NCBI RefSeq assembly: GCF_020379485.1
Contig: NC_063442.1
Span: 17,804,732-17,868,731, forward strand
Source of the DNA: Brassica napus
Lineage: Eukaryota; Streptophyta; Magnoliopsida; Brassicales; Brassicaceae
Direction: 5' to 3'
DNA: 64,000 bases
Shown: positions 1-25,049 of the stretch, in pieces
How positions within the stretch are numbered: the first letter of the stretch is position 1
Layout: each line of letters opens with the position of its first letter
The notes under the pieces: generated by a model
What the model saw: the letters and a program-made list of their open reading frames with translations, nothing else
The model's database searches: none
Told to the model about the DNA's origin: nothing
Position numbers and translations under genes: made by a program

Positions 1-2831
1 TCATGGTTTCTCATATTTGATCGACTTGGTAGTACATAAATCATGAACATCACCTTTTTGCCTTTCCAAAGTTTCTTCACACAACTATTTGGCATGTTAA
101 GCTCTATGAGGTTCTTTGGATCAAAACATTGCGGCAATGAGCTTATAGGATAGCATTCCCAGTGCAGAAGCCTTAGCTTGCTCGGCAAATATTCAAGGCC
201 TTGAGGTAAAGATACTCCATGGTTCTCTACCACTTTAGAGAAATAAAACTTTAACAGTCTAAGGTTACACATTTTGTCGAATACATTGGCATTGGCATCA
301 CATTTCAGCTGTGACATGTCCAGAAAAATCCCCTCAATAGCTGCTGTGCCCTGAAAACCAAGTGAAAATAATTTAGCGAGAACAAACATAACTGACTGAA
401 CATTAGAAGACAAAAGATTGTCATGATGACTTACAGTGTTATCTATGAATACATCCCTAATATCTTCAGCATTCCACAACCTGCTGCGGTCTCCTGGCCT
501 GTCAATTGATTCTTGGCGAACAATTTCTCGACCTGTTGCCTGGAGGAACCAGAGCATGTCCACCATATTGTGTGATATGGTTAACAGTGATTTGTTAACA
601 AGGTTTTTAAACCCAATATGTGCAGAGAAACCACATCCATCAAGCAACATTGCGACATCGTCTTTATCCATCCTTCTAAAGAAACATGCAACGTCTAAAA
701 ATATACTCTTTTCGTTGTCATCAAGCCCACAGCAGCTTCTTTCGAATATACCTGGAATGTAAATGGCAGAAGATTTCCGAATTTCTTTTGATAAGCATTC
801 TCTGCTCGACCTGCTTAAGAACTGAAGAACCATGGGATTTCCATTTGAGAATTTGACCAGCTGTGGTGAGTATGTCCTTGTAGGCTTGAGTGAGAAAAAA
901 CTCGGACGTGCCCCGAGATTGAGAAGTCGTAGAGCCTTATAACTTTCTAATGGCTTGACTTTATAGACATGATTGATTTTGCATAGCACGAAAACACGTC
1001 TGTTCCTCGAGGTTATGATTATTCTGCTTCCTGGACCAAAATAGCTAAGCTTTCCCAAAAAGGTTTCAACATCTCTGAAATCATTCACATCGTCGAGAAC
1101 TACCAGGACCTTTTTACATTGAAGCCTATTCCTCAAGAAACTTGTTTTCCTGCCGGAAATTCGAATAACACGTGGTTCTACCTCTAAAACTTCCGATAAT
1201 AACTTCTCTCTCACAGCATCAGGACCTTTTAATTCTACTTCTTGATGAAGGTCCTTCAGGAAGACACAAGTCACAAATTGGACAGAGATTCTACGAAAGA
1301 TTTCTTCAGCAATGGCTGTTTTTCCTATACCAACCGTTCCCCATATACCTACGCTGCGAACATCTGGGGATTCAATGCATAGCAGTGACAAAATATCCTT
1401 TATCTGCGTACCCATCCCAATCATTTTCTTATCATCATAGGAACATAGCACCTTCAGAGCGTCTCTAACAATCTCAGCTATAAGTTCAGACTCGGACCTG
1501 CAAGATCTGTAGACGAGACAATCGTTAAGAGAATGTTAAAAGTGAAATATCAAAGTTATATAACAAAAGAATTCCTACAATTAGAAGCTGAGGATCACGC
1601 ACTTATCTGTCAATATGTAGCCAGGCATCTGAGTTATTTCCCTCAAAGCAGCATGACATCGTTCAGGCTCATCTTGAAGCAAAAGTCCCTCATAATACTT
1701 GCTGTTACTGATCAAATCAGATGGTGATATTCCATAAAAAATCGGATAAACCACTTGAGGCTCTTTTCGTTGTTGTTCAACAATGCTTAAGAGATTCGGA
1801 GGGACGTATGTGCTGGTTAATAAGATGATCAAAACCTTACATTCCTGCACTGAATCCACTTCATCAAAGTCTCCATAGACAGAAATCCTTCTACGGGAGA
1901 GGGCAGCAAGAAGATGGCTAATGAAATCCTCGTTGTTTACGTCCCCTCTCCTGTACCTAATTACAACATCATAATCTTTAGGGGCAGATGATCCACTTAG
2001 AAGCTGAGGCTGAGAGGCAATTCTGCTTCTTGTAGCGTCTGGAAATTCCAGATTATCTAAGTAATCTGATGTAAAGCCTGTAAGTGATAATGGATCCAAA
2101 TTCTTATACGAAAACAAATCAATGTCTGAAATCCCGCGGGGTGGATAGACAATGTTCGACAGCGAGACAGCTTTCTTAATCCTCTTCTCTTGAGAAGTGT
2201 TGGGCGGCTCGTAGTCCCCAAAGCTTCTGCGATGATGATCATAGATCCACAAGTCGGAACGCGGCTTTGGTAGACTCCAAATCCCAGATCCGGGATAAAC
2301 TGCATAACCAAAAACATACAGAGTGATTTACCAAATGCGGTTGCGAATGAAATCAAACTGATAATCTAATAATAACTCACATCCTTGTCGATGAGCTAAG
2401 CACGCGAAGGCGTTAGTTACCGCCTCCACAACTCCTCCTTCTGTCGCTCTAGCACCTAATCGGAACTTACCATCCTTCAACCAGCTCGAATCATCCGTGA
2501 ACGATATCTCCCCGCTGATCACTCCGGTCCCGTCTTTAAGTATCACGATCAGATCTCCGACCAGCAATGATCGTTTCCCTTCCCGTGACCACAGTAGATT
2601 CCGGTTGAACACCTCCGTTGTCCAACTTTCTTCAGTGAGGTCGGCGTCTAGGGCGACTATCTCGACACGCGAAGACGAAAGCGGCCCTGAGGTAATTCGA
2701 GTGTTTGAGACGGCGTCAACAAGCTCGATTGCTATCGGAGAACCGTCTTCCGCCTCAATCCTTGAAGCCGTGAATATCGTCGGTGACGGCGAATTTATGA
2801 AACGTAGCTTAAACCATGGTTGCTGCAGCAT
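1..2831 (-). CDS. CBP60-TIR-NB-ARC-LRR immune receptor, WRKY19-type (5' part, runs off left edge)
   Basis: Intracellular immune receptor. Exons on the minus strand: 2831-2381, 2299-1603, 1497-435 and 350 to about 54 or beyond; phases agree at every junction. Exon 1 (residues 1-150) is a CBP60-family domain: it opens MLQQPWFKLRF, then IFTASRIEAEDGSPI, SGPLSSSRVE, and ends FTDDSSW and KFRLGAR. The middle and C-terminal CBP60 parts are absent. Exon 2 carries a linker and a TIR domain (about 259-382) starting YDVVIRYRRGD. Exon 3 is NB-ARC: P-loop GTVGIGKT (about 436-443), kinase-2 VVLDDVND, RNBS-B SRIIITSRN, a degenerate GLPL (GNPM) and VDM where MHD is usual. Exon 4 starts the LRR part. From memory the TIR and NB-ARC match Arabidopsis At4g12020 (WRKY19), which has a WRKY domain N-terminally and a MAP3K-like kinase C-terminally; here CBP60 occupies the N-terminus and the C-terminus is not visible. 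The Met at 2831 is the only in-frame ATG after the upstream stop. No stop interrupts the coding exons. Confidence 0.85.
351..434 (-). other. 84-nt intron without stop codons
   Basis: Donor GTAAGT and acceptor TTTTCAG bound an intron in the WRKY19-type receptor. It is 28 codons long, in phase 0, and has no stop codon, so retention would keep the reading frame and insert 28 residues between the NB-ARC and LRR parts. Confidence 0.7.
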
Positions 2832-3048
2832 CTCTGGAAGCGTTCGTAAGACTGAATCACTAGAGAGGTGTACGATCCGGATCTTGGTTCTATTTCGATT
2901 TAGTTTTCCATTTTTGTTATATCGATTTGTAGAAAATAGCTACGACATTCAAACCATATCTATTTCCGTTTAAGTAGGAGTTAATCCATGCTGCGCGAGA
3001 CTATTTTATTTTCTTGAATGTTGTATTCTTTACAACAATAAATTCCAA
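2832..3048. promoter_or_regulatory. Upstream region of the WRKY19-type receptor
   Basis: About 215 bp lie between the receptor start codon and the left end of the Helitron-like element. It should hold the minus-strand 5' UTR and proximal promoter. I see no diagnostic motif. If the pair was originally divergent and close, this is what is left of a shared promoter on this side. Confidence 0.4.
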
Positions 3049-3966
3049 CTAGATTTTAATCCGCACACCCGTGCGGATAACATTTTATTTATAAATATAA
3101 AATTTTATATTATTTTTTATATAATAATTTTTGATAATATATTCCTGTCATTTTAAAAATAACTAAATAGATGATATATAGTTCTAAATATTAAAAATTA
3201 AACATATGTTAACAATTTTATTTTTTTGTAAAAATTATTACATAATTTATAAATATTAATCATTTTAAAAGGTGAATGATATTTTAGTCACTTTAAACGG
3301 TGAATGATATTTTTTTTATTTATCTTAATGAAAATAGTTTTTTCAAAATATATTTGTTTACCAATTCAAAATAATTTTAATATGTTTGCACAAAAAAATA
3401 ATTCTAATATGTAATTCAATAATTACTTCTATTTTAATATAATGTATAATATACTTCTAAAATTTATAAAATTAGCAAATAATTTCATTATTTTATTTAT
3501 AATAAAAATGTAATTAAAATTAATTTATAAAAACATTATACTACTAATTGCAAAATTAATCAGTGCATTAATTAAAATAATATTTAAAATTTAAAAAAGA
3601 TTTTGTTAAATTTTTTCTCAACAGATTTTGTTATTCCAAACTAAAATTTAAATTTATAGTTAAAATTGATTTGTTATTAATATCCTTATAATTATTTAGA
3701 AATGTTATATATTAAATAAACTAATGTAAACAATAAAAATATTATTTGAATATGTGGACCTAGACTTCTAATATGACTATTTTGTAGTAGATAAAAATGG
3801 TACTTCTCTTTTAATAGAGAAGATAAATTCTGAATTAAATGTTTGGGTGAATACATATTTCCTTACGAAAAATTAGAAAATTATACATTTTTTAAATAGA
3901 TGTTTGATATAGTTTTTTCTTTCTTATACTGTATATTTACTTATTATTTTATTTTTTATATTATAT

Positions 3967-4271
3967 GACAATTCTCTCAAATAGATCTTTTAAATTTTCA
4001 TCATAAATAGCATTCAATAAGGAAAATGATCAAAATATCCCTTTTTATTTTGAAAATTTTAATTTTTAATTTTAATTTTTAAAAATTTGAAACCATATCA
4101 TCAAAACCCCACCCCTTAACTCTAAACTATAAGTCTATGTTAGTTAACCATAAGGTATAAATGTATTTTTACTTTTTAATAAGACTTATTTTGGTCATTT
4201 TTCTCATTTATAGCTATTTTGTAACAAAAAATTAAAAAAAAAAGCTATCCTAGGAAATTTTTCAATATTGT
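3967..4271. mobile_element. MULE-type MITE (diverged copy)
   Basis: Starts GACAATTCTCTCAAATAGATC and ends near TAGGAAATTTTTC. It shares end and internal sequence, including the CTTAACTCTAAAC block, with the better preserved copy at 10343-10643. The flanks are too AT-rich to define a target duplication. Confidence 0.45.
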
Positions 4272-4931
4272 ATATTTATTTATTCTCATTTTCTTGCTTT
4301 TATATCAAATGATAATATTAAGATCGATGTTTAATGTAATAATTATATTTCTTATATTGTATATTTACTTATTATTTATTTAAATAAACATTTTCCATTT
4401 AACTATATATTTTTCAGATAAATATTTAATTTTGTTTTTCTATTTTTTATATTATATATTTACTCACTGTTTATCTTTTCTTATTTTTATATTTACTTAT
4501 TCTAAATTTCTTACTTTTATATCAATGATAATATTACGATATATATTTAATGTAATATTTTTATTTCTTATATATTATATTTACTTATTATTTATTCTTT
4601 CTTATATTTCATATTTACTTATTATAATATTTAACAATTATATTTACTTATTGTATTTTTAAATAATAAAAATGTAAAACAATATATTTTTCAAATAGAT
4701 GTATAATGTAATTTTTGCATTTCTTAATTGTATTTTACCTATTTTTTATTTTTCTTATATTGTATATTGTATATTTACTTATTCTATTTTTCAACTTTTA
4801 CATCAAATGGTAATATTATTTATAAATTTTTAATGTAATATTGATATTTCTTATATTGTATATTTACTTATAATTTATTTTACTGTATGTTTCTCAGATT
4901 TGTTTTTATTTTCCTTATATATTATATTTAC

Positions 4932-5280
4932 CTCTTCATGCGGAATTGGAGGCTCTAATTTGGGCAATGGAGTGTATGAAGAACTTACGACAGTATCAGG
5001 TCACGTTTGCAACAGATTGTTCTCAATTGGTGAAGATGGTTTCGGAACCAGAAAAATGGCAAGCATTTGAAAGCTACGTGGATGACATTAAGTTTTTGAG
5101 AAGAAGCTTTACCAACTCAGAGATTGTTCATGTTCCAAGGACGGAAAACATAAAGGCGGATCGCTGGACACGTAATGCTCGGACACAACCGTCTTTAGTC
5201 GTACACATGGATGCGGAGTTACCACATTGGTTTACAGAGTCATATGAGTCTGTAAATTTGTCTTGCTGTCAAAAAAAAAA
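4932..5280 (+). mobile_element. 5'-truncated LINE fragment (RNase H region)
   Basis: Encodes the C-terminal RNase H-like part of a plant LINE: EALIWAMECMKNLRQYQ, ATDCSQLVKM, IVHVPRTENIKAD. It ends in a 10-A tail at 5271-5280. An 11-bp target duplication, ATTATATTTAC, flanks it at 4921-4931 and 5281-5291. It is a dead fragment with no reverse transcriptase. Confidence 0.75.
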
Positions 5281-6744
5281 ATTATATTTACTTATTCTAA
5301 TATTACGATAGATGTTTAATATAAGATTTTTATTTATTATATTGTATATTTACTTATTATTTATTTTACTATACATTTTTGAGAAAGATGTTTAATTTAG
5401 TTTTTCATTTATTAATTGTATTAGACCTATTGTTTATTTTTTTTATTGTATATTTACTTATTCTAATTTCTTTCATTTATATCAAATGATAATATTATAA
5501 TATATGTTTCATGTAAAATTTATATTTCTTATATTGTATGCTTATTTTTCTTATATTGTACACTTACTTATAAAAATATTTGGAAATAATAAAAATGTAA
5601 AACTCTACATTTTTCAAATAGATGTTTAATGTAGTTGTTCCATTTCTAATATTGTATATTTACTTATCTACCTATTTTTCTTTTATATCAAATTGTAATA
5701 TTACGGTACATGTTTAATGTAACATTTTTATTTCTTATATTTTATATTTACTTATTATTTATTTTATTATAGATTTTATAGATAGATGTCTAATGTATTT
5801 TTTGTATTTCTTATATTATATATTTACTATATTATTCATTTTTCTTATATTTTATATTTAATTATTCTAATATTATAATATACTTGTAATCTAATATTCT
5901 TAAGTTGGATATTTAGTTATTATTTATTTAACTATACATTTTTCAGATATATGTTTACTTTAGTTTTTCTATTTTTTATATTGTATATTTACTTATTGTT
6001 TATCGTTCTTATTTTGTATATTTATTTATTCTAAATTTTTTGCTTTTATATAAATGTTAATATTATGATATATATTTAATGTAATGTTTTTATTTCTTAT
6101 ATACTATATTTACTTAATATTTATTTTTTCTTATATTACGATAATTGTATAATATAATATTTATATTTTGTATGTTGTGTATTTAGTTGTTAGTTATTTA
6201 ACTATACTTTTTTCAGATAGATGTTTAATTAGGTTTCTTAATTGTATATTTACTTATTCTAATTTTCTTGCTTTTATATCAAATGATAAATTATGAAAGA
6301 TGTTTAATGTAATATTTCTATTTCTTATATTATATATTTACTTTTTATTTATTTTTCCTTATATTGTGTAATTACTTATTATTTTGTTTTTCTTTATATG
6401 TATATATTTTTTGTTTTATTAATGTCACGAGTCATCTTTTAGAAGAAGTTTTTTTTTTGGTCATGTGCACGCTACCTCAAAAGCTCCATTTTATTAGTAT
6501 AGATTCGTATATTTTATATTTAGTTATTCTAATATTATAATAGATGTTTAATCTAATATTTTTATGTTGTATATTTACTTATTATTTATTTAACTATACA
6601 TTTTTCAGATATATGGTTAATTTAGTTTTTCAATTTTTTATACTGTATATTTAATTACTGTTTATCTTTTTATTTTGTTTATTTTTTATTCGAAATTTCT
6701 TGCTTTTATATCAATGATAATACTACAATATATATTTTTTTGAC

Positions 6745-7400
6745 AGGAAAAAACATTCACAGACTCATATAGACTCTGTAAACCAAGGTGGTAACTCTGA
6801 ATCCATGTGTACAACGAAAGACGGTTGTTGCCGAGCACTACGTGCCAAACTATCCGCCCTTGTGTTCTCCGCCCTAGGTACATGAACAATATCTGAGTTG
6901 ACGAAACTTCTTCTCAAAAGCTTAATATCTTCCAGGTAGCTTTCAAATGCTGGCCATTCTTCTGGTTCTGAAACCATCTTCACCAATTGAGAACAATCCG
7001 TTGCAAACGTAACCTAAAACTGTCTTAAATTTCTCATGCATTCCATTGCCCAAATTAATGTCTCCATCTCCGAATGAAGCGATGAAATACATGTCCTTAC
7101 ATTCTTTTCCCCTAGTAAACCATCATACCCTGGTAATGTACATAGCCAACCTTTCCCTGAAAATAGATCCTTATCTTTCCATGAACCATCTGTGAAGCAC
7201 CATCTTCATGTGGTTCCTAAGTTAGGCATGACATGTACTTCATGTGCACACTCGTTGTTACTAACCTGTGTCTCCGCCCAAAGTGTTGATTCTACTTCTG
7301 CTAGTCGAAGTGTTTCCCTGGGATCAATATCAAGATTACTAAATACTTTATTGTTCGGACCATTCCAAATATACCATAATATCCATGCAAACTGATGATC
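6745..7400 (-). mobile_element. 5'-truncated LINE fragment (RNase H region), opposite orientation
   Basis: Minus-strand relative of the 4932-5280 copy, with a longer 5' part: WNGPNNKVF, CFTDGSWKDKDL, EMETLIWAMECMRN, ATDCSQLVKMVSEPE, VPRAENTRADSLA. At least two in-frame stops interrupt it, one before WCFTDGSW and one in LRQF*VTFAT. It sits inside the AT-rich array. Target duplications cannot be separated from the surrounding AT repeats. Confidence 0.7.
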
Positions 7401-7451
7401 CTTGTATAATATATTATATTTAATGTAATATTTTTATTTCTTATATACTAT

Positions 7452-8675
7452 GGGGGGCTTATTGTATTAGGGATTTCAAAGAATTTTGGAATTTTGTCAA
7501 ATCCTCCCTTATTGAATAAGGTATTTACAAAAATTTATACAAATCCAAGGTTATTGGATATAGCATTTGTAAAACTACTATCAAATCTCTCCTTATTGGA
7601 AAATATGGATTTCATTAGTGAGATTCATAAAAAATTATTTTGGATTATTAGAAAGTATCATTTACCCTTTAAATCCATTAAGAAAGAATACCATCTAAAG
7701 AGATGGAATTTGAAAAAAAAAATTACGAGAAAAAGATGATTAACGTGTGTCACTTCTCGACCCTCCTTTGCCTCCTTTCTTCCCCATATGGCCATTAGGG
7801 ACTTCTCTCTGTTGATTTTAGGCCAAGATTATTCGAACTCTCTTTTTCTTATTTTAATCTGCTATCCTTCCATGGAAGAAGCAGCTTGAGTTTTTTTTTT
7901 TTGTCTGAGCATGACTATGGGTGGCTTGATTTCAAACAGGAACTTGGGTTCCTTGATCGGATAGCTATTATCATCAGCGTCAAGCTCCTCCCTCATCTTC
8001 TCTGATCGCCAACTGTTAATGACTAAGAGTTATCCTCTTCACTTTCAGATCTTTGCTTGCGTTCCCAATGTTCGAACTAGAATGCGTATTGCTAACTTGA
8101 ATTTATCATTAAATTGCTTGGTTTCAGGACTAGACTTCAGCTGAAGATCCAGAACATCTGGCGTGTTTTCAGTCTCACCAAAAGAGATGATGGAGATGCA
8201 AGAGCCAAAAACTGAAGGAAAAAGAGAGATTATTCTACAAACCAAAAGAAGATATTTTTTGGGACTGCTTGTTGCTTATATTTGGAGGACTTACCAACTG
8301 ATGAACAACACATAATCATAGGGATCAACTTGGTATGTTAGTTAAAAGATCTAAGGACTGTTGATAAACTCATAATCATAGGGATCATCAACTCATAATA
8401 GTTGTAACGTGTTTGAGATTTTCTTTCTAGAAAAATATATTTCCAGCTTATCTATTATATGTTAGTTTTGATATTGATAATCATTTGAAATATACAGATA
8501 TGATATTCGTTGCTTTGATAAGGAGGATTTTAGATTATCTTTTAATTAGTTAAATCCAACCAAATTCCCTTTCTAAATCTCAATATAAATCCTTGAATTC
8601 AACAAAACCCTCTGAATTCCATCAAAACTTAAAATCTCCAAAACCTTCTCAAACACCAAATACAATAAGCCCCCC
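7452..8675. mobile_element. PIF/Harbinger-like element with 17-bp terminal inverted repeats
   Basis: Left end GGGGGGCTTATTGTATT and right end AATACAATAAGCCCCCC are perfect inverted repeats. A 3-bp TAT flanks each side, and removing one copy restores the CTATATTTACTTA motif of the host array. No transposase is recognisable. The middle (about 7740-8300) is less AT-rich and may be captured sequence. Confidence 0.65.
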
Positions 8676-10342
8676 TATATTTACTTAATATTTTTTTATA
8701 TATTTTATATTTATTTATTCAAATATTACGATAATTGTATAATATAATATTTCTATTTTTTATATTGTGTACTTAGTTATTTTTTATTTTACTATACATT
8801 TTTCAGATAGATTTTTAATTTAGTTTTTTTTCATTTCTTAATTGTATCAAATGATAAATTATGATTGATGTTTAATGTAATTATGATAGATGTTTAATGT
8901 AATTTTTATATTTTCTATATTATATATTTACTTTTTTATTTATTTTTCCTTATATTGTATATTTACTTATTATTGTTTAGTGTAATATTTTTATTTATTA
9001 TAATGTATATTTATTTATTATTTTATTTTTTTATATGTATATTTATTTTTATTTTTTATTAATGACACTTGTCATCTTTCAGAAGAAGTTTTTTTTTGCT
9101 GATGTGGACGCTCTATGGAGCCTCAAAAACTCCCTTTTATTAGTCTAGATAGATACATTTTCGAGATAGATGTTTAATTTAGTTTTTTATTTTTTTATTA
9201 TATATTTACTTATTCTAATTTTCTTGCTTTTAGATCAGATGATAAATTATGATGAATGTTTAATGTAATATTTCTATTTCTTATATTGTATATTTACTTT
9301 CTATTTATTTTCCTTATATTGTATATTATTGTTTAATGTAATATTTCTATTTCTTATATTGTATATTTACCTATTATTTATTTTTTTATATGTATATTTA
9401 TTTTTTATTTTTTGTTAATGTCATGTGTCATCATTTAGAAGAAGTTTTTTCCACTGATGTGGACGCCCTATGGAGCCTCAAAAGCTTTCTTTTATTAGTA
9501 TAGATAGATACATTTTTCAGATAGATGTTTAATTTAGTTTTTTCATTTTTTTAATTATATATTTACTTATTCTAATTTTCTTGTTTTTATATTAGATGGT
9601 AAATTATGATAGATGTTTAATGTAATATTTATATTTCTTATATTGTATATTTACTTTTCATTTATTTTCCTTATATTGTATATTTACTTATTATTGTTTA
9701 ATGTAATATTTCTATTTCTTATATTATATATTTACTTCTTATTTATTTTTTTATATGTATATTTATTTTTTATTTTTTGTTAATACCACGTGTCATCATT
9801 TAGAAGAAGTGTTTTCTGCTGATGTGGATGCCCTATGGAGCCTCAAAAACTCCATTTTATTAGTATATAGTATAGATAGATACTTTTTCACATAGATGTT
9901 TAATTTTTTTTTTTCATTTTTTAATTATATATTTACTTATTCTAATTTTTTTGCTTTTATATCAGATGAAAAATTATGATAGATGTTTAATGTAATATTT
10001 ATATTTCTTATATTTTATATTTACATTTTATTTATTTTTCTTATATTGTATATTTACTTATTATTGTTTAATGTAATATTTCTATTTCTTGTATTGTATA
10101 TTTACTTATTATTTTCTTATATGTATATTTATTTTTTATTTTATGTTAATGACACGTGTCATCATTTAGAAGAAGTTTTTTCTGGTGATGTGAACGCTCT
10201 ATGGAGCCTCAAAAGCTCCTTTTTATTGGTATAGATTCGATCATATATATTTATTTTTATAATATTTTGTGAATTTTAGATTACTATTTAAAATAGTTAA
10301 TAAATATTTTCTTTATGTGCTAAAGAATAACATTAAGTTAAT

Positions 10343-10643
10343 GACAATTCTTTCAAATATCATCTTTTTAAGCTTTTGTCACAAAAATAGTTTTTAATTA
10401 AAAAAATGACTAAAACAGCCCTATTTTATTTTGAAATTTTTCAATATTTATTTCTATTTTTTATAACTTGAAACTCTATCCCCAAAACTACACTCCTTAA
10501 CTCTAAACCCTAAGTCTATATTAGTTAACTCTAGAATAAAAAATACATTTTTACTCTTTAATAAAACTTATTTTGCTTATTTTCTTTATTGAGAGCTATT
10601 TTTATGACGAAAACTTAAAATTGATTATCTTAGAAAATTTCTC
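10343..10643. mobile_element. MULE-type MITE
   Basis: A 301-bp element between exact 10-bp duplications TTAAGTTAAT (10333-10342 and 10644-10653). Ends GACAATTCTTTC and GAAAATTTCTC are imperfect inverted repeats. A CTTAACTCTAAACCCTAAG block in the middle is typical of this family. No coding capacity. Confidence 0.65.
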
Positions 10644-10667
10644 TTAAGTTAATACTAACTAGAGCTG

Positions 10668-10702
10668 GACCCAGCCGGGCGGGTGTTTTTTTTGGTTACT
10701 TA
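10668..10702 (-). other. Possible degenerate Helitron 3' terminus
   Basis: ACTAGAGCTGGACCCAGCC followed by GGGCGGGTG resembles, on the minus strand, a GC-rich hairpin followed by CTAGT. The stem is imperfect and no matching 5' end was found. The rest of 10654-11492 is AT-rich with no gene seen. Confidence 0.3.
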
Positions 10703-11510
10703 ATGTAACTAAATATTTTTTTACACCATTATATAATCTATAAAAATTATAATAAAATGGTGACAAAAATACATCACATAATACATATATTGATGTTACA
10801 TAATTCCACTAATAGTAAAAATAAATGATTTATATAACTGTAAATGTTAATATCACGCGAATATTTATTTTCATTTAACCAATATCATTTTTATTTATCC
10901 GATATCGAGTTGGCTAGTGGTGAAGAAAATGCTAGTAACCTTTCATTGGTTGGGTTTGATAGGCGTTAGAAAAAATTATTAACAACATTTGGGTTCCCAG
11001 TATAAAAGAGAAACCAAATTTTCATTTTTTAGGAATATACTTTTGTCTTCTATAAATAATATAATATTTATTTATTTATTCACGTATTATGTATTTTTTA
11101 TTATGACATTACACATAATAATTAAAATATATTTTTTAGTTTATGTGTGTGTTTTCCATAAACTAACATATATATGCGAAAATAATATTTGAGATATGTT
11201 TTGATTGGTTTTTGGTCATAAATGATAACTATATTAAATTTTCAACCCGTTATATAAGTAGTCTTAATGTTTAGTTTCTCAACCTGATATATAAATATTC
11301 GTATGCATTTTTAGTAAAATATTTATATTATACTTATTAAAATGAGTAATTTTTTAGAATGAGTAATTGCATTTCTTGTATTTATATTATTATCAAATTA
11401 ATTTTATTTTAACTTATTGAATTTAACATTTTATTATATATAGGATTTTTATTTTATTTGAACCTTTTTTTTTCTTAGAACATTGTTATATTGTCTAAAT
11501 GTTTTTCTTT

Positions 11511-14117
11511 TTTGAGCAAACTACGATTCATTCAATTAAGAAAACAGAGTCACCCTTCGACTAGGGGGGTAGAGTTTACAGATGCCAGGGCTGCCTTAGC
11601 CACTTTATCAGCAGCCACATTACATAAGCGAGGAATGAAGTGAAAGGAAATATCCTCAAAAGATAAGCTAAAATGATAGATGTCAAACAAGATGCCAAAC
11701 AGTTCCGGGCGTGATTCCTTAGCTCTAATCATGTTGATAAGAACCTGGGAATCCGAAAGAACTATCAGCGATCGGACGTTAGACGAGGAGGCGGTCATCA
11801 CCGCCAAACGAACAGCAAGAGCTTCTCCCATGAGAGCTGATGAAACAAAAGAACGAGAAACCTTAAGGGGCTGGATCCTAGTGTCTTCCAGTCCCGAAAA
11901 CAGACCCCCTATGCCACAGTTACCAGTACGAAGATCCCAAGCTGCATCCACATGGCACAGAACTTGGCCAGGAGATGGTTGGGGAATGATCGGAGGAGAA
12001 CCTTGTCGATTGGTAGCGTGGTTATGTTCTTCAGTGAGCAGTTGAGCAGCAGCCCATTCCTTCGCATCAATAACGCTTTTGTTCACAACTTCCCACTCCG
12101 TGAAGGTTTTGTTTTCAAAGCACAACTTATTTCGAGCTTTCCAAAGGTTTCATAAGAGCCAGGGCCAGACAGGGGTATCACACCCCACCGGAGGCAGATT
12201 GGTGTACTTCTTACCATTTGCAAATAAACTCGCCATGGAGCTATTTGAACCATCCGGAATTTCATAAACTGGTAATAGGCTCCATGATTGAGAAGCAAAG
12301 GGGCAGAGAAGGAAGACGTGGAGATCATCTTCAACTCCTCCACATTTCGCGCAAGGAAACGGAGCCATACCTCTGGTCGCTAGATTGGAACTAACTGGGA
12401 TTGCTTTTCTTTTGACTTTCCATAGAAAATCCTTGATCTTGGGTGAAGTATTCAGGTTCCATATGTTCTTTAGCCAATCAAAAGTCTGCTCATTTGTGTG
12501 AGGAGGGATCAAGCCAACACGTTCCACTCCATATCCCGTTTTCACAGTGTACTCTCCTGATTTCTCAGCTAGCCTGGCGAGGGAGTCGCGAGCAGGGGCA
12601 GAGCTTGTGATAATCCTATTAATAATGCCTTCATACTGAGGAAGATAGTTCCTGATCTTTTGGATGTCCCAGGCGTTAGTGAGAGGGCATAGAAGCTCAC
12701 TAACTGTCATCGATACTGCATTCTCAGTTGGTGGACCCATAGGGGCTGTAGGAAAGGAGGAGGAGAGCCAAGGATCCCCCCACACCTTGATGTTTTCTCC
12801 ATTCCCAACCACCCAACCGAGTCCTTTTCTTAGAACCTCCCGACCTGCCAAGATACTTCTCCATCCGTGGGAGGCTGATGATGGGCTTTCACACTCCATG
12901 AAAGAGGAAGCTTTAGCATATTTTCCGAGCAGCACTTGTTCCAGCAACGAGTCTGGAAACTGTATAAGGCGCCAGCCAATTTTAGCGAGCATGGCATCAT
13001 TAAAAGTCTCAATGTCTTTGAAACCTAAGCCACCAGCATATTTGGGCAGTGTGAGAGTAGACCATGCAACCCAACACATCTTTTTCTTTTCCGGGTTTGC
13101 ATCCCACCAAAATCGAGTAAGGAGGGATTGTATTTGTTTGCATAGAGAGATAGGCAACTTGAAACATGACATCGTATAGCACGGTATTGCAGCAAGGACA
13201 GATTTGAGGAGGACTTGTTTACCGGCGCCTGATAAGAACCGAGATGTCCAGCTATGCGCCTTCTGTCTGATGCGATCAAGAATTGCCGCAAATATGTCTC
13301 TCTTCTTGCGGCCAAAGTTTTCGGGGAGGCCCAAATATTTGCCAATCCCTCCCTCTGCCGGGATAGACAGCTCAGTCTTCACTCGAGCTTTAACCTCACC
13401 AGGGGTCTTAGCCGAGAAAGTGATAGACGACTTCAGCAGGTTGATCCGTTGTCCAGATACCTTTTCATAACTCTCTAAGATCGTCTTCAGAGTAGTGACA
13501 CAGGCGGGTGTTGATTTGCAAAAAAACATTGTATCGTCCGCGAACAATAGATGATTAATCGGAGGACAGTTCCGTGCTACCTTCACCCCCGCCATAGTAC
13601 CGTTTAGTTGCGCCTTAGTACACATCGCTGAGAGGACTTCTGTACACATGATGAACAAGTATGGTGAGAGCGGATCACCTTGCCGTATTCCACGCGATGG
13701 AGTAACATGACCGGAAGGTGAACCATTGAGCAGAAAAGAGTACGATACTGATTCAACACACGCCAAGATCCAAGAGACCCATATCGGGTCAAAACCAAGC
13801 TGGGCCAGGACTGCTCTAATAAAACCCCACTCTATGCGATCATAAGCCTTGCTCATATCGGTTTTCACCGCCATGGAGCAATACTTTTTCGCCTCTGAAG
13901 TTCGGAGATAATGTAAGGTTTCATGCGTAATGAGGACGTTGTCCGAGATAGCTCGTCCCGCTACAAAAGCCGATTGCGTCTTGGAGATAAGATCTGGCAG
14001 CAGAGGCTTGAGGCGTCGAGTAAGGATTTTGGCAATGATCTTGTAATGAGTGTTACAGAGAGCTATCGGTCGATAGTCCGCAACCTTTCGCGGTCCCGAA
14101 CAATGATCTTGTAATGA
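11511..14117 (-). mobile_element. LINE retrotransposon, 5'-truncated, with 18-bp target duplication
   Basis: Non-LTR element read right to left, bounded by exact duplications GTCTAAATGTTTTTCTTT (11493-11510 and 14118-14135). It starts inside the reverse transcriptase at KVADYRPIALCN and ends after the RNase H domain, with a short A-rich tail. The endonuclease and ORF1 are missing through 5' truncation, so it cannot move by itself. Confidence 0.85.
11550..14099 (-). pseudogene. LINE reverse transcriptase-RNase H polyprotein, one nonsense codon
   Basis: One continuous frame from about 14099 to 11550. Reverse transcriptase motifs: AVKTDMSKAYDR, RGIRQGDPLSPYLF and the catalytic FADD in LLFADDTMFF. 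Then come a zinc-binding-like FPCAKCGGVEDDLHVFLLC and an RNase H domain (VDAAWD, GEALAVRLAV, LSDSQ, NVAADKVAKA). The only break is a TGA at 12150-12152, where the family usually has Trp (WLL*NLWKARNK); both sides are in the same frame. It is silent debris unless read through. Confidence 0.85.
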
Positions 14118-14135
14118 GTCTAAATGTTTTTCTTT

Positions 14136-15003
14136 ACGTACAAAACTTGAAGAATATTCTTTTGAAACTTTCCCTATTACAATTTTCTCATAAGAAAAAT
14201 CTTAGGTGTTTTTAATTTTTTTAGTACTAATATTTAAATGTACATGTTATTACCAAATCTAATATTTCAAATCCTTATTAAAGAAAAATAATTTAAGGTA
14301 AAATTCAATTGAACATATGTAATATCATACATAATTTAAATGTACATGTTATTAATTGTACTTCTATTTATCATGAATTTGTCTTAGGGTTATTTCTTAT
14401 TTGTACTTCTATTTTAATAAAGTAGATAATTTTTATAGAATAAAATAAGAGAAATTGGTAATCTAAAATATTACTAAATAACTACATACTAGCATACATA
14501 TTTGATAAATATGAAACAATAAATTTTTGACTCAAAATAAATATAAAATTACTAAAATCAACATTTTAATTACAAAATTCATATCAATAAAATAAATTGT
14601 GTATAATTTAATTATATTATATAATTTAAGTAATTTAATTAATCAGTTTAAATCTCAAATCATATCAGTAAGTTATTTGGATATGTTCGGTATTAATAAA
14701 TCCAAACTATTTTTTCTATTCTGATTCAGTTCAGTTTTATTGGGTTGAACGCTCCTTGACTGTATCGGAGGATGTTAATCTCAGATACCCTAATGACTTC
14801 TTATAAATTGATATATACCACGTTGTTTTCATTTTATCAATCAAAAGGTGGAGTAAGAGACTTATAAAGGGTTTTAATGAATTTGCATTATTACAGATTC
14901 AACAATGCTTCAATGAATTATCCAGGTATCCAGATCCAAAATATATATCTGAGCTTCAAAATCATTGATTATTTATGCATCAAAGGTATCATACAATGGT
15001 AGC
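14136..15003. other. AT-rich intergenic stretch
   Basis: No gene, tRNA or clear mobile element ends seen. The last 15 bases run into the target duplication of the next retroelement. Confidence 0.5.
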
Positions 15004-15018
15004 AACCTTAAACGAATT

Positions 15019-16491
15019 ATTTATGCATCAACGGTCTTTAGCAGGTGGTTAATAGTTAGTTTGGCACTCGGGCTTCTTACTAGTTCGAAGGTTGCTTCTT
15101 TCAGAGGAAGTGTTTCCCCCTGCTCTGTGTGTGCGGTGGGTTAAATGGGTGTATACGGTCCCGAGATTGGAGGGTTGGTAAAAGCAATCTCCAGTTCTCC
15201 GTCTTGAACGACGACACCGCTTGTCAGTGGACTCCTCTTCGTGCTGTCGGTGAGGCGATTTTGATTGAGATGGTTGGTCTGTGATGTGTTTCCTGGTGAA
15301 GATATTGATGTTTGAGGTTGTAGGTTTTACTCGTTGCTTCAAGGTTTGAGCCGCCTTTCTCTCCGGGTGCTCGCGGCAACTGGGCTCTCAGTCCGCTCAT
15401 ACCTTTCCCTTGGGCCATCGACGATACCCTTACTCCAATCTGCCTCTAGGACTAGGGCTGTTCAATATGGTAAAACCGAACCGTACCGAACCAAACCGAA
15501 CCGAAATAGACAATATGGTTTGGTTTTGGTATATACCATATAAACCGAATGCATATAATTTTATAAAAACCGTAGGATTTGGATATTGTTTGGTATATAA
15601 CCGATTAAACCGAATAAACCGAACAAAACCGATTAAAAGTAGAAACATGTAAATATGTATCTATTTTATAACAATACATGAAAATATATTTGTTACATAA
15701 GTTAAATTTGTGTTAATAACTATTACCATAATTTTATAGTAATAAAAAACCTTAATTTGTAAAACATTTGAACTATAACTAAATAACAATACATCGCAAT
15801 TCAAACATCTTATTTTCTAAGTCTTTTTTTGATCTTTTTGCTTTTTTTAGTCTTCACTAAATTAATATGAAAATTATAAATTTGATGGACAATAATTAAT
15901 GGAAAACTTTCAATTGAAAAAGCATGACTTTAATGAACATTAAATATGAAAGAGTGGAAAAACTTTTCTTTCATGTTTTTGTTTTGTTTCATATTTTTAT
16001 TTTCAAAATTTCAAGCTTTGATTTTAGTTATAGATTTGATTATTTTATTTGATGGTAGAAGCATTTTTAATTTTTTGTTCATTTATTTGAACATGTAATA
16101 TATTTTTAATAAATAACGGTGTTGACAATATGACTCTAAAATTCATATAATATGATCTCAAACAAAATAATTATGTTTTTTGGTATAAAACCGAATAAAC
16201 CGAAAACCGACGGTATATAAACCGAACCGAACCGAAGTAAATATGGATTTAGAATGGTAGTTATATTTTACTAACCGAAATACCGAAAACCGAAAAAAAC
16301 CGAACCGAAACCGAACCGATATCCGGATTGAACACCCCTATCTAGGACCATAGTCTGTCGTAATAGAGTTTGCTTGTCTCTAGATGCTTTGTTTAGTTTT
16401 ATTTATGCATTCTGCTTCTTGTTTTTTCTATGTGCTTCTGTAAAAAATTTAAAACTTGGTATAATAATTTAACATTTTACCAAAAAAAAAA
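15019..16491 (+). mobile_element. Non-LTR retroelement 3' fragment interrupted by a hAT element
   Basis: About 577 bp of retroelement once the hAT insertion is removed. It is bounded by exact 15-bp duplications AACCTTAAACGAATT (15004-15018 and 16492-16506) and ends in a run of 12 A (16482-16493, overlapping the duplication) after GGTATAATAATTTAAC. It has no usable ORF; it looks like the 3' UTR end of a LINE. Confidence 0.75.
15453..16340. mobile_element. Non-autonomous hAT element with 8-bp target duplication
   Basis: An 888-bp element between exact 8-bp duplications TCTAGGAC (15445-15452 and 16341-16348). Terminal inverted repeats TAGGGCTGTTCAAT and TAGGGGTGTTCAAT differ at one base. AACCGA-rich tracts lie just inside both ends, in the same orientation. 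No transposase is encoded. It sits inside the 15019-16491 retroelement, so it arrived later. Confidence 0.88.
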
Positions 16492-16506
16492 AACCTTAAA
16501 CGAATT

Positions 16507-17070
16507 GAAATATTTAAAATTAGGTATCTGGTCTGCACTTGCGGGCTTAATAATTTTACAAAAATGTGAATAGATATTTTATCATTTCAAAAACCATTAA
16601 AACAAATTATTTTCATGCTTTTGAAATATTTAATAATTAATTAAATATTAATTTTTTATACATGATAAATATATTTTAGTAAAATATATGTAATTACATA
16701 AAATAAACTTGAAAGCATTCATATATACATAAAACTAAACATAGATTTATATTTAGTTCAAAAATATTATGATGTAAAATATTTTTGGGCAACTATATAC
16801 ATAGATTTATATAATCTAATTATTTATTAAGAATAATAAAGACTTTAAACATTCTAATTTTTAACGTGAGCGCGAATAAAACACTTCACAAATAATGATA
16901 TAAATATTTTTGATTTCTTTGTCTAATTTTTCAGAAATTATCATTGAGTGATTTTGATTGTCCTAAGGAATACTTAAAAGATAGATGGTTCATCTATCTT
17001 ATGTGATATATATTATAAAATAGAGTCGGTTTAATATTACTAAGCCAAATATAATAATATATATATATAA
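16507..17070. other. AT-rich intergenic stretch
   Basis: No gene or element boundaries recognised apart from the left target-duplication candidate AATATATATATATAA (17056-17070) of the next element. Confidence 0.45.
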
Positions 17071-18807: not shown

Positions 18808-18809
18808 AA

Positions 18810-19146
18810 TATATCTATATAATATTGATATCACTAAAATAAATATAATATAAATTTAACTATGACATTATCCTTAGAGTTTTTTTAATTATTCTCAAGA
18901 TAATGATAAATTATCAGTTAAATTACTAAAATTATTTATTAAAATTAATAATTAAATTAAAAATATGACTGAACCTATAATTACGGGAAGCATGACAAAT
19001 CAGCAAATTTACTTTTCAAATTTGCGATATAAACAAAATTACGGGGAACATGATAGATTTGTTAACCTATACATTTAGGTGTTAATTTACAATATAAACA
19101 ATTAGACTTTATCACAAATATTAAACAGTGTATTGTATAATTAGCA
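18810..19146. other. AT-rich intergenic stretch
   Basis: Nothing recognisable between the poly(A) tail of the upstream element and the target duplication of the foldback element. Confidence 0.4.
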
Positions 19147-19155
19147 AATATTTTG

Positions 19156-20546: not shown

Positions 20547-20770
20547 AATATTTTGTCCCAAGTGTGGACAAACAGCTAGTTAAAAATATAATCAGAAATA
20601 TGTGATTAAGCTTTCATTTCTCTCAATTCTCGATTCTCATCCTCTTTTTTTTTTACCTAAATCCATCCATTTTCAGACCTTAACAAAGATCAGTCAACAC
20701 TTGACTCTTGTAGTCTGCTTCCGATCCAAAGCTTATCGTTGTTATTAGCATTATCAAAACGATATCTCCC

Positions 20771-23700
20771 ATGGTGTCTCATCTTTACGATGTCTTTCTC
20801 AGTTTCAGAGGCTTTGACACACGTTATAACTTCACCGGCCATCTTGATAACGCGCTCAAGCGGAGAGGAATCGACTCTTTCATCGACGACAAACTCCGTC
20901 GAGGAGACGATATCACTGCGCTCTTCGACAAAATCGAGCAATCGAAGATAGCAATCATCGTCTTCTCGAAAAATTACGCGAATTCCGCGTGGTGTCTCCG
21001 AGAGCTTGTGAAGATCCTCGAGTGCAGGGAGAGAAACAAGCTGGTGGTGGTGCCTATCTTCTACAAAGTCGACAAGTCGGAGCTGGTGAAGGTCCTTAAA
21101 GAGAGTTTTACTGAAGTTACTGAGGATGAGATTGTATCCTGGGAAGCTGCACTGACCACAGCAGTCAACATCTCCGGCTATGTAGTCAATGAGTTCAGGT
21201 ATGCTCTCTATAAAGGATCTGCATTGATGTCGTGGTTTGTCCTGAATCAAGCTTCATCTTCTTGTTTGATAGCACGCCTGAGGCCAAACTTGTGGATGAT
21301 ATTGCTGTTGACACATTCAATGAGCTAAGTGAATTGGCTCCTTTTGAGAGCGAAGGTCTCGTGGGAGTGGAATCTCGTCTAGAGACTCTTGCAAAGCTTT
21401 TAGCTTGCGATGAGTTGGACTCTGTTTATATCCTTGGCATTATTGGAATGGGCGGGATTGGTAAAACTACTCTTGCTGAATGCTTGCATGAACGGATGCG
21501 AGTTCAATTCGACGGAAGCTGCTTTCTTACAAACATCCGTGAAAAGTCAAGTAAAAGCGGATTAGAGTCTTTGCTGCAGGAACTCTTCTCTGAATTACTT
21601 AATGATAAGCATATTAAAATCGGAGCTCCTGGAAATGCACATGAAAGATTTGAGCGCAGGCTCAAGAGCAAGAGGCTGCTTATTGTGCTTGATGATGTGA
21701 ACGATGAGAAGCAGATTAGATATCTTATGGGGCACTGCAGATGGTATCAAGGAGGAAGTAGGATTATCATAACTACTAGAGATAGTCAACTAGTCGAGGC
21801 AGTCAAGGGTCGAAAGTATGTGCTCCCTAAACTGAATGATAGAGAAGCCTTGAAGCTCTTCAGCTTGAATGCATTTAATGCCTCTTGCCCTTCGAGTGAG
21901 TTTGTGAGGTTGGCAAACATGGTTCTGGATTATGCTAAAGGTCACCCTTTGGCTCTTAAGGTGTTAGGGTCTGATCTTTTTGAGGAGAATACTCTGTACT
22001 GGGAAGCTAAATTGAGTAGACTGACAAGTAAATCACATGGACAGATCTATGAAGTTCTGGAAACAAGCTATGAGGAGCTTAGCTTTGACCAGAAGAATGT
22101 TTTTCTGGATATTGCATGTTTCTTCAGATCAGAGAAGGTGGACTACGTGAAAAGCCTTCTCAACAGTCATGGTGTGGACGTGTCTAGCGTGATAGAGGAT
22201 CTACTTGACAAATGTTTGATTACTCTTTCTGATAATCGCATCGAGATGCATGACATGTTGCAGACTATGGGCAAAGAGATTAGCCTAAAACCAGAAACCA
22301 TAGGAATAAGGGACTTTAGGCGACTATGGGACAGTGATTATATTTGTTACCTTCTGACCAAAGGCTTGGTAATGGCAACTATCATTGATTCTATCCTTTA
22401 CAACTTTGTATTATACTTTAGCCTCTTGCTTTAAATTAACTATGGTTTATCTACCTCTTGGTTGCTAGGGAACTGACATGATAAGAGGAATTTTCCTGGA
22501 CACATCAAAACAAGGAACAATGCGTCTAAGCGCCAAAGCATTCAAAGGGATGTGCAATCTCAAATACCTGAAAATTTATGATTCGCGTTGCTCACGTGGA
22601 TGTGAAGTGGATTGTAAACTGCTCCTACGTAAGGGGCTTGATTTCCTTTCTGATGAGCTTACATATCTACACTGGTATGGATGCCCTCTACAGAGTCTCC
22701 TTCTGAACTTTGACCCCAAGAACCTTGTAGACCTTAAGCTTCCATATAGTGAGTTAGAAGACATTTGGGACAAAGACAAGGTATATTTCTATGTGTAGTT
22801 TTATCACTCATAAGCTAAAATCTTGAATGCTAGGAATGTCATATGAGCTTGAGCTCATGAGCTAACTCGCTTGCTCGGTTTTGCATGAGCATGAGCTATA
22901 TTTTTCTAGGTTAAATGACTTTAATGATCGAGTTTGATTTAGTTCATGAGTTATAGTATAAATGAGCATTAATGAACATGAGGTAGCTTTAACTTAATCT
23001 TTTAGAGTTAAATATATATATTAGAAATATTTTGTTTTACATTTTAACTATGGAAGAGGAATATAAGTAATTTATATATTTTAAAAAGGTATCTAAGACT
23101 TTTGTATACACATTATCACATTTAAAACTTATGTAAAACATCTTATATAAACTCATATTAAAGTCGAGCTTATCATGAGCTAAGCTGAGTTGTGCGAGTT
23201 AACTCATTTTAACACCCTATTTAATACCGAGTTATAACAAGAACTGTTGTTACAGGATGCTGGAATGCTCAAATGGGTGGATCTCAGTCACTCGTTGAGA
23301 TTAAGCCGATGTTCAGGTTTGGCTAATGCTCAAAATCTTGAGAGGTTGAATCTAGAAGGATGTACAAGTTTGAAGAAGTTGCCATCATCCATGAAATGTT
23401 TGGAGAAGCTTATTTACCTAAATCTCAGGGAGTGCACAAGTCTCAAGAATTTTCCAAAAGGACTCAAAACTCAATCCTTGGAAACTCTTATTCTCAGTGG
23501 CTGCTCCAGTTTCAGGAAATTCCCAATGATCTCAGAAAATGTTGAAGTTCTACTTTTAGATGGCACAGCTATCAAGAGTCTTCCTGAATCCATTGAAAGC
23601 TTGAGAAAACTTGGTATGCTGAATTTGAAAAACTGCAAAAAGCTGAAGCATCTTTCTTCTGATCTTTATGAGCTGAAATGTCTCCAAGAGCTAACACTCT

Positions 23701-25049
23701 CAGGATGCTTACAGCTAGAAGTTTTTCCGGAAATCAAGGAAGCCATGGAATCTTTGGAGATTTTACTTCTGGATGATACAGCCATCACTGAGATGCCAAA
23801 CATGATGCATCTAAGAAATATCAAGACATTTTCTTTGTGTGGAACAAACAGTCAAGTTTCTGTTAGTATATTCTTCTTGCCACCTCCATTGGGCTGCTCT
23901 CAGTTAACGGATCTTTACCTCTCACGATGCGGTCTGGACAAACTACCAGATGATATAAGTGGCCTATCCTTGTTGCAGTCTTTATGCTTAAGCGGAAACA
24001 ACATCGAGAATCTGCCTGAGAGCTTCAACCAGCTTCACAATCTGAAATGGTTTGATCTTAAGTATTGCAAAATGCTCAAGTCTCTACCAACCCTTCCACA
24101 GAATCTGCAATATCTGGACGCTCATGAGTGCGAGTCACTTGAAACTCTGGCAAATCCATTGACTCCTTTGACAGTAGGAGAGAGGATACATTCTATGTTC
24201 ATCTTTACCAACTGTCAGAAGCTGAACCAAGATGCTCAAGAGTGTCTTGTAGGTCATGCTCGGGTCAAGAGTCAGTTGATGGCTAATGCTTCTGTGAAAC
24301 GTTATTACCGGGTAATCCTCTCCTCTCCTCCTTCCACGTTATTGTAATAAGCAAAATGCTTATTGTTTTTTCTTTCGCAGGGATTTATACCAGAACCTCT
24401 GGTTGGAATCTGTTACCCGGCGAATGAAATACCAAGCTGGTTCTGCCACCAAAGACTAGGACATTCACTAGAAATCCCATTGCCTCCTCATTGGTGTGAC
24501 ACTAACTTTGTTGGACTTGCCTTATCTGTAGTTGTCTCATTCAAAGACTATGAAGACCGTGCTAAGCGTTTCTCGGTTAAGTGCTCCGGCAAATTCGATA
24601 ACCAAGACGGTTCCTTCACAGGATTTGACTTTACTCTGGCCGGCTGGAACGAACCCTGTGGATCGCTTAGCCATGAACCAAGAAAGCTTACTTCTGACCA
24701 TGTTTTCATGGGATACAACAGTTGTTTCCACGTCAAGAAACTCCATGGAGAGAGTAGCAGCTGCTGTTACACAAAGGCTTCTTTCGAATTCTATGCAACG
24801 GATGATGAAAGGAACAAGAAGCTCGAGACTTGTGAGGTGGTCAAATGTGGGATGAGTTTAGTGTATGTTCCTGATGATCATACTTGTATGTTGTTGAAGA
24901 AGACGAATCTGGTTCAGTTGTGTACGAATACCGAACCAAGCTGTTCCTACGGTCTTGATGATGTCAGACTCAAGAGAGGACGATGCCAGGTTGGTGGTGG
25001 TGATGAAGAAGCAGATTGTAAGAGAACGAAAGAGAAGATTTTGGTGTGA
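20771..25049 (+). CDS. DSC1: TIR-NB-ARC-LRR immune receptor, DSC1 ortholog
   Basis: Cytoplasmic or nuclear TNL receptor. Exons 20771-21198, 21273-22368, 22469-22780, 23256-24311 and 24381-25049 join in phase into about 1186 residues with no break. TIR (about 6-140) starts DVFLSFRGFDTR and keeps the catalytic Glu (about E78) in AWCLREL. NB-ARC: P-loop GMGGIGKTT (201-209), LLIVLDDVND, GGSRIIITTRD, GHPLAL (365-370) and MHD (468-470, IEMHDML). LRRs follow (LERLNLEGC, LETLILSGCS, GTAIKSLPESI). Exon 5 is the post-LRR jelly-roll domain (YPANEIPSWFCHQ) with a basic tail, KRGRCQ and CKRTKEK. From memory it is close throughout to Arabidopsis At4g12010 (DSC1). In Arabidopsis DSC1 is divergently paired with WRKY19, and the WRKY19-type receptor at 1-2831 faces it here too. 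DSC1 is known genetically to mediate autoimmunity in camta3 mutants. Confidence 0.95.
22781..23255. other. DSC1 intron 3 with a possible MITE
   Basis: At 475 bp, the longest DSC1 intron. GAGCTAACTCGC near its start (about 22858) is matched in inverted orientation by GCGAGTTAACTC near its end (about 23196), with AGCTCATG words around both. This suggests a roughly 400-bp MITE. Exact ends and target duplications could not be fixed. Confidence 0.35.

Follow-up and report, generated by a model that had tools for sequence, protein, structure and literature searches.

The window, a stretch of 64,000 nucleotides of Brassica napus DNA (G000:C211:17804732-17868731), holds at its left end the first exons of a receptor gene whose predicted product carries a CBP60 N-terminal domain ahead of a WRKY19-type Toll/interleukin-1 receptor-nucleotide-binding-leucine-rich repeat (TNL) receptor. 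This gene, the sensor in what follows, stands head to head with a DSC1-like TNL gene, the executor. The parts of the sensor that lie in the window are as follows.

2381..2831, minus strand: sensor exon 1, with the start codon and the CBP60 N-terminal domain (PF07887), ending in phase 1; residues the same as in NCBI protein P0002
2300..2380, minus strand: intron 1, 81 nt, GTGAGT...TGCAG; donor in agreement with the CBP60g exon donor in place and phase
1603..2299, minus strand: sensor exon 2, linker and degenerate TIR domain in which the WCLxE block is missing (domain search, spliced model)
435..1506, minus strand: sensor exon 3, NB-ARC and winged-helix domain; P-loop present, MLW at the MHD place
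54..350, minus strand: sensor exon 4, first LRR exon (spliced model)

The first-pass annotation had read exon 1 as a CBP60 domain joined in phase 1 to a linker-TIR exon and then to NB-ARC, and both points held up. A profile search of exon 1 returns PF07887 (Calmodulin_bind) with an E value of 2.1e-43, residues 7-144 matching positions 1-144 of the 147-position profile, and the exon, being 451 nt long, ends in phase 1. All sensor introns in the window are GT-AG (intron 1 has an A+T content of 67%), and the spliced product is 100% identical, across its 839 window-encoded residues, to P0002, a B. napus protein of 1079 aa that NCBI names 'probable WRKY transcription factor 19 [Brassica napus]'. 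The remaining LRR exons lie past the left window edge, the gene extending to about C211:17803978. P0002 fits a TNL, with a weak TIR domain (27.4 bits in the full-length protein and 21.0 bits for the exon alone, cut-off 21.3), an NB-ARC domain (E 4.4e-14), and LRRs. By the phase-1 join and the agreement of the model with the NCBI protein, PF07887 and the receptor domains share one reading frame, as an integrated domain does, and in the gene model exon 1 is spliced in frame onto the TIR exon. The first methionine of exon 2, read from the sequence, lies only near the end of the TIR domain; a protein that includes the complete TIR must therefore begin farther upstream, and exon 1 offers a start codon there. 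Retention of intron 1 would yield a short CBP60-only protein, since the frame meets a stop 17 codons on.

P0002 shows no WRKY, PAH, or kinase domain in a profile search (E 0.05), and PF20451 and PF20452, the CBP60 middle and C-terminal domains, are absent from it; both are present in two relatives, P0029 and P0054. By its predicted domains the window gene is a carrier of a CBP60 N domain, not a CBP60 protein, and a WRKY19 relative, not a WRKY protein. Its linker between the CBP60 and TIR domains matches, among the 40 other relatives compared, an Eruca protein only. For the CBP60 N-terminal domain (2381-2831), a Rel-homology/velvet-like fold is predicted; among the 8 of 213 literature matches listed, none pairs CBP60 with such a fold, and a search by sequence found no solved CBP60g structure.

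The executor is encoded on the other strand.

20714..21328, plus strand: open reading frame (ORF) containing the TIR exon of the DSC1-like executor (PF01582, E 4.8e-38); WCLRE present
21214..22434, plus strand: ORF containing the NB-ARC and winged-helix exon (PF00931, E 8.4e-31); MHD present
22469..22780, plus strand: first LRR exon, extent of the tblastn match
23238..24347, plus strand: LRR exon (ORF; PF23598, E 1.3e-19)
24351..25049, plus strand: C-JID domain (ORF; PF20160, E 2.6e-16)

The two receptors differ in their signature motifs: the WCLxE block, which we take to hold the TIR catalytic glutamate, is missing from the sensor TIR, and the MHD place of the sensor (located by an ungapped count back from GREI) reads MLW; the executor keeps both WCLRE and MHD. 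In nine other aligned relatives, bearing CBP60, AP2, or WRKY modules, the TIR block is missing throughout and the MHD aspartate is found in none, the histidine being kept by P0029, P0054, and P0025. Divergent genes, a degenerate sensor, and an intact executor make up an arrangement of the RRS1/RPS4 kind, and these predicted features mark the window gene as the degenerate member, the sensor, of a head-to-head pair of the WRKY19/DSC1 type. The earlier assignment to that type is borne out by strands and domains and by the NB-LRR tree described below. The gap between the two genes (2832-20713, 17.9 kb, 70% A+T against 67% for the window) contains a long interspersed nuclear element (LINE)-type reverse transcriptase (12150-14201, minus strand); the corresponding gap on contig C116 is about 7.3 kb. 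A second LINE-type reverse transcriptase fragment (PF00078) lies at 37969-39390 of the window, plus strand.

To the right of the pair are DUF1191 and CDC20/Fizzy genes, which presumably fit the Arabidopsis WRKY19/DSC1 neighborhood. To the left, C211 carries a further head-to-head pair in tandem with that of the window (sensor2, 17781475-17789115, minus strand; executor2, 17794964-17803175, plus strand), and also on the left is a gene for a bile-acid symporter (PF01758, E 1.4e-39). In Arabidopsis, the account of this gene cluster has BAT5 adjoining WRKY19 and DSC1 (PMC7020509). The pair, the symporter, and the right-hand neighbors together identify the WRKY19/DSC1 locus, an SBF gene and a head-to-head executor occupying the syntenic place on C211.

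The tandem copies show uneven divergence. Executor2 (L010/L011, C211:17794964-17803175) is 97.8% identical to the window executor in the main LRR exon, 76% in the TIR, and 82% in the NB-ARC, which suggests gene conversion of the 3' half. The neighboring sensor NB-ARC (L023/L009, C211:17782684-17783739) is 92% identical to the window gene over one third and 72% over the rest, and the more similar third is a possible conversion tract. About 200 kb off, a VQ-type sensor (L032, C211:17588500-17598400) has on the opposite strand three tandem DSC1-like TIR matches, two of them with NB-ARC matches.

Relatives were drawn from two protein searches, the first with 52 hits (7995 candidates scored), the second covering the best 120 of 365 hits, and 41 clusters (P0002-P0039, P0054, P0056, and P0058, partial gene models and isoforms included) were taken as the WRKY19 sensor clade. 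In an NB-LRR tree built with a quick method, from which P0039 was omitted for having too little NB-ARC, 40 clade rows including P0056 and P0058 lie on one side of a 100% branch and three outgroup rows on the other, and the window gene groups with WRKY19. PF07887 and NB-ARC occur together in 11 of the 52 hits of the first search, from Brassica, Hirschfeldia, Eruca, Eutrema, and Microthlaspi. According to the Pfam listings, CBP60 pieces are present in 12 of the 41 clusters (11 with PF07887; P0054 of Noccaea, presumably a transcriptome-derived UniRef entry, with the middle and C-terminal domains); the other N-terminal extras are VQ alone (11 clusters), WRKY (6), AP2 (3), and kinase plus VQ (1), and eight clusters have none. 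On the NB-LRR tree these labels need six changes for CBP60, four each for VQ and WRKY, and three for AP2, several changes that indicate a turnover of N-terminal modules. P0011 of B. carinata is a WRKY19-clade receptor with a protein kinase (E 4.8e-61), which we take to be SnRK2-like, and a VQ motif N-terminal of the TIR.

Within the window's own genome, the best candidates scored include seven places with at least 67% identity to the sensor NB-ARC. An upstream CBP60 exon is found at four of them (twice on C211, and on C485 and C116), and the other three have a VQ-type N-terminus without CBP60. Both parts are joined in the NCBI proteins P0004 (C485) and P0009 (C116). C116 has one such sensor with a CBP60 exon facing a DSC1-like executor head to head, and C211 has two. 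Two further, near-identical CBP60 exons of the fused type (L015, C348:19294168-19294581; L016, C262:29794960-29795373) have an in-frame stop upstream; they are followed by a stretch that is also found after CBP60 in P0004, and no receptor was found within 14 kb downstream of either.

Among free-standing proteins, A. thaliana CBP60g is the closest relative of the exon-1 domain (57% identity in the protein search, 64% in the tree alignment). An N-domain tree was computed from 54 rows, comprising 10 fused domains, 32 Brassicaceae CBP60g, and 12 CBP60 proteins from outside the Brassicaceae; P0036, which is partial and resembles P0009, was omitted. The 32 CBP60g form a clade at 100/99 with all 10 fused domains outside it, and Tarenaya falls outside both groups at 94/85. 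The fused N domains form one group at 72/5, or at 97/83 for the nine that remain without the long-branched P0029. Recent capture from a Brassica CBP60g, modeled as a grouping of the fused rows with the 20 Brassiceae CBP60g, is rejected (approximately unbiased test, p-AU 0.0005); these 20 rows are not a clade by themselves in the best tree, and their clade, when constrained alone, is not rejected (p 0.24). Rejected as well are a grouping of the fused rows with a 22-row clade around the Brassiceae rows (p-AU 0.003) and their placement with any of three Brassiceae CBP60g subclades (p-AU 0.00009, 0.0003, and 0.0001). The middle and C-terminal domains of P0029 and P0054, placed in a tree with 11 CBP60 proteins from outside the Brassicaceae, group with Brassicaceae CBP60g, apart from Tarenaya (96/84). 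Compared with two CBP60g-type genes from its own genome, the window domain shows a synonymous divergence (dS) of 1.22-1.31; three comparisons between diverged CBP60g-type copies give 0.35-0.47.

The first-pass annotation had proposed that a CBP60 decoy was swapped in or gained in this lineage, by capture of a lone exon. The idea of an integrated domain of the bait kind survives; a recent swap does not, given the occurrence of PF07887 with NB-ARC in five genera, the Noccaea relative with middle and C-terminal domains, and the position of the fused domains outside the 32 CBP60g. The fusion is old and common to several cabbage-family plants, as their predicted proteins indicate. Capture of a lone exon is likewise disfavored: P0029 (B. 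rapa) has the N, middle, and C-terminal CBP60 domains, P0054 the latter two, and in P0008 and P0014 a segment resembling the beginning of the middle domain survives (none of 1000 shuffles reaches its score). Remnants of the middle domain seen by eye in P0003-P0005 and P0009 were not upheld (the observed score is reached in about 300 of 1000 shuffles), nor was one in the window linker (74 of 1000). The domain does stop at an exon edge, as had been claimed, and that edge matches CBP60g's own phase-1 donor: in the window exon, GGA T followed by GTGAGT agrees in place and phase with GGA GAA T followed by GTAAGT in CBP60g, and the fusions retain this donor and phase. The domains and remnants in the relatives suggest that more than the N-domain exon was probably taken up at first and that the insert then shrank to that exon. 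On the simplest reading, a CBP60g-like gene was captured once, early on; a single event is likely, not proven.

The CBP60 domain is under purifying selection. The ratio of nonsynonymous to synonymous substitution rates (dN/dS) of the window domain lies between 0.29 and 0.47 in comparisons with three further fusion loci and is 0.26 for the receptor-less C348 copy, all upper 95% bounds lying below 1; close pairs are uninformative (e.g., L009/L012, dN/dS 0.83, bounds 0.23-3.58). Identity to the Eruca protein is 92% for the domain (over 120 residues), 55% for the linker, 75% for the TIR, 76% for the NB-ARC, and 89% for the LRR. Of 30 columns that are at least 95% fixed across 88 CBP60 proteins from outside the Brassicaceae, the 10 fused domains depart at 19% on average and the 32 CBP60g at 10%, a comparison whose p-value is made too small by the relatedness of the rows; an earlier control on up to 28 columns, chosen with CBP60g included, gave 3-6 changes in the fused domains and 0-2 in CBP60g. 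Low dN/dS together with more departures at conserved columns indicates a domain that is kept, but under altered constraint. Net charge is negative in 8 of the 10 fused domains (-6 in the window), positive in most of the 32 CBP60g, and mostly near zero or negative in the 88 other CBP60 proteins. The basic patch for DNA binding was checked as well, and its loss proved only mild.

RRS1/RPS4 is the model for a pair in which an integrated domain serves as bait and the partner signals. By analogy with it, our working hypothesis, to which we assign a probability of roughly 60%, is that the window gene is the sensor of a head-to-head TNL pair whose CBP60g-derived N domain acts as bait, and that it arose by one old capture, later trimming, and recurrent exchange of modules. 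Any pathogen protein that attaches to, or modifies, the DNA-binding region of CBP60g would act on the copy in the sensor as well; the degenerate sensor would then release the intact DSC1-like executor, whose TIR would signal defense. In evolutionary terms, a CBP60g-like gene would have been captured once, early in the Brassicaceae, its middle and C-terminal parts would have been lost later, and N-terminal modules (CBP60, VQ, WRKY, AP2, kinase) would have been swapped recurrently within the sensor clade.

Several observations weigh against this hypothesis. A distance of 3.7 kb separates the CBP60 exon at the second C211 sensor from the next coding match, and the matches listed include no fused protein above 97% identity; on C485, a scan of 11 kb upstream of the CBP60 exon revealed no executor. 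Support for a single origin that includes P0029 is weak, the fused N domains can be placed with Tarenaya without rejection (p 0.12), and the clades for the placement tests were named after the tree was seen. If there were several captures, the purifying selection could partly predate capture. The window copy retains most basic residues of the conserved RSRKF stretch, so its sequence gives no case for lost DNA binding. Finally, the binding experiments in the account of VdSCP41 place its contact at residues 211-440 of CBP60g and show none with 1-361 (PMC5993538); that effector is therefore not expected to touch the window domain, which lacks the region bound, and its detection through this domain is unlikely.

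The same data bear on what else the domain might be. It could be a working module that still binds DNA or partners and recruits the receptor to the promoters or partners of CBP60g, or else one that regulates the pair; we consider this unlikely, since conserved CBP60 columns have changed more often than in CBP60g and the window gene has no middle and C-terminal domains. The negative charge of most fused domains points the same way when set against CBP60g, yet loses weight beside the 88 other CBP60 proteins. Improbable, to a further degree, is that the exon is a passenger, a relic of the old fusion kept mainly for its start codon and N-terminus. The absence of a start codon from exon 2 before the TIR end, the loss of the middle and C-terminal domains in some relatives, and the two receptor-less exons on C348 and C262 would suit such a relic, but dN/dS bounds below 1 would not, nor would a domain so much better conserved toward Eruca than the adjoining linker.

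We give very little credence to an annotation artifact in which exon 1 is a separate CBP60 fragment beside a receptor gene. The splice join is that of a gene model, and retention of intron 1 would produce just such a short CBP60 protein; against this, the same architecture recurs in five genera and several annotation sources, the phase-1 donor is conserved, and exon 2 has no start codon for a whole TIR.

CBP60g is a master switch of plant defense, and CAMTA3 represses it. If the domain is indeed a bait, it marks the N-terminal DNA-binding region of CBP60g as a target of cabbage-family pathogens, a part of the protein other than that to which VdSCP41 binding has been assigned (PMC5993538). DSC1, for its part, is described in the account of that gene as a dominant suppressor of camta3 (PMC7020509). 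The tie to the CAMTA3-CBP60 pathway that the first-pass annotation proposed would build on these two points and is conjectural. A more tentative proposal, which we regard as possible though doubtful, is that the sensor N-terminus is an old exchange socket for defense-network modules (CBP60g, WRKY, VQ, AP2/ERF, kinase) that all act through one DSC1-like executor; with CBP60 in place, the sensor would guard CBP60g's Rel-like DNA-binding domain against pathogen proteins that are not yet known to attack it and so protect the control of salicylic acid at a point where CAMTA3 also acts. The sensor clade would further offer a trimming series of one captured gene, from N, middle, and C-terminal domains to the N domain alone, with that domain still under selection, useful for asking how integrated domains mature.

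The first-pass annotation had left open whether such a fusion has been described. As a kind it has: a 2019 account of the A. thaliana pan-NLRome reports integrated domains derived from CBP60 among sensors of the RRS1 class (PMC6709784). The form at the WRKY19 locus in Brassica was not found in the literature searched (titles and abstract openings). Sarris et al. list VQ in nucleotide-binding leucine-rich repeat receptors of B. napus, B. rapa, Capsella, and Eutrema (PMC4759884), and neither calmodulin nor CBP60 occurs in the main text of that article. Likewise, ZS11A09.DSC1/ZS11A09.WRKY19 of B. napus, placed in sensor and executor clades, is a DSC1/WRKY19-type pair too (PMC7955885), and CBP60 and calmodulin have 0 occurrences in the main text of that source.

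Arabidopsis WRKY19 (At4g12020)/DSC1, as described in PMC7020509 and PMC9528084, shares with the window pair the receptor clade, the head-to-head pairing, and the kind of bile-acid symporter neighbor; the window protein differs in having a CBP60 domain instead of the WRKY, PAH, and kinase domains. CBP60g differs from the window protein by its N-terminal extension and its middle and C-terminal domains, and it acts as a transcription factor rather than as a receptor. The A. thaliana pan-NLRome sensors resemble the window gene in carrying a CBP60-derived domain in a TNL sensor, and their authors group CBP60 with TCP and WRKY integrated domains; the sections on CBP60 give no locus, domain extent, or position (PMC6709784), whereas here the locus is that of WRKY19, the domain is the N domain only, and the capture appears old. 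CBP60 in a sensor is a known kind, and the window gene adds to it a WRKY19-locus case with an unusually readable history.
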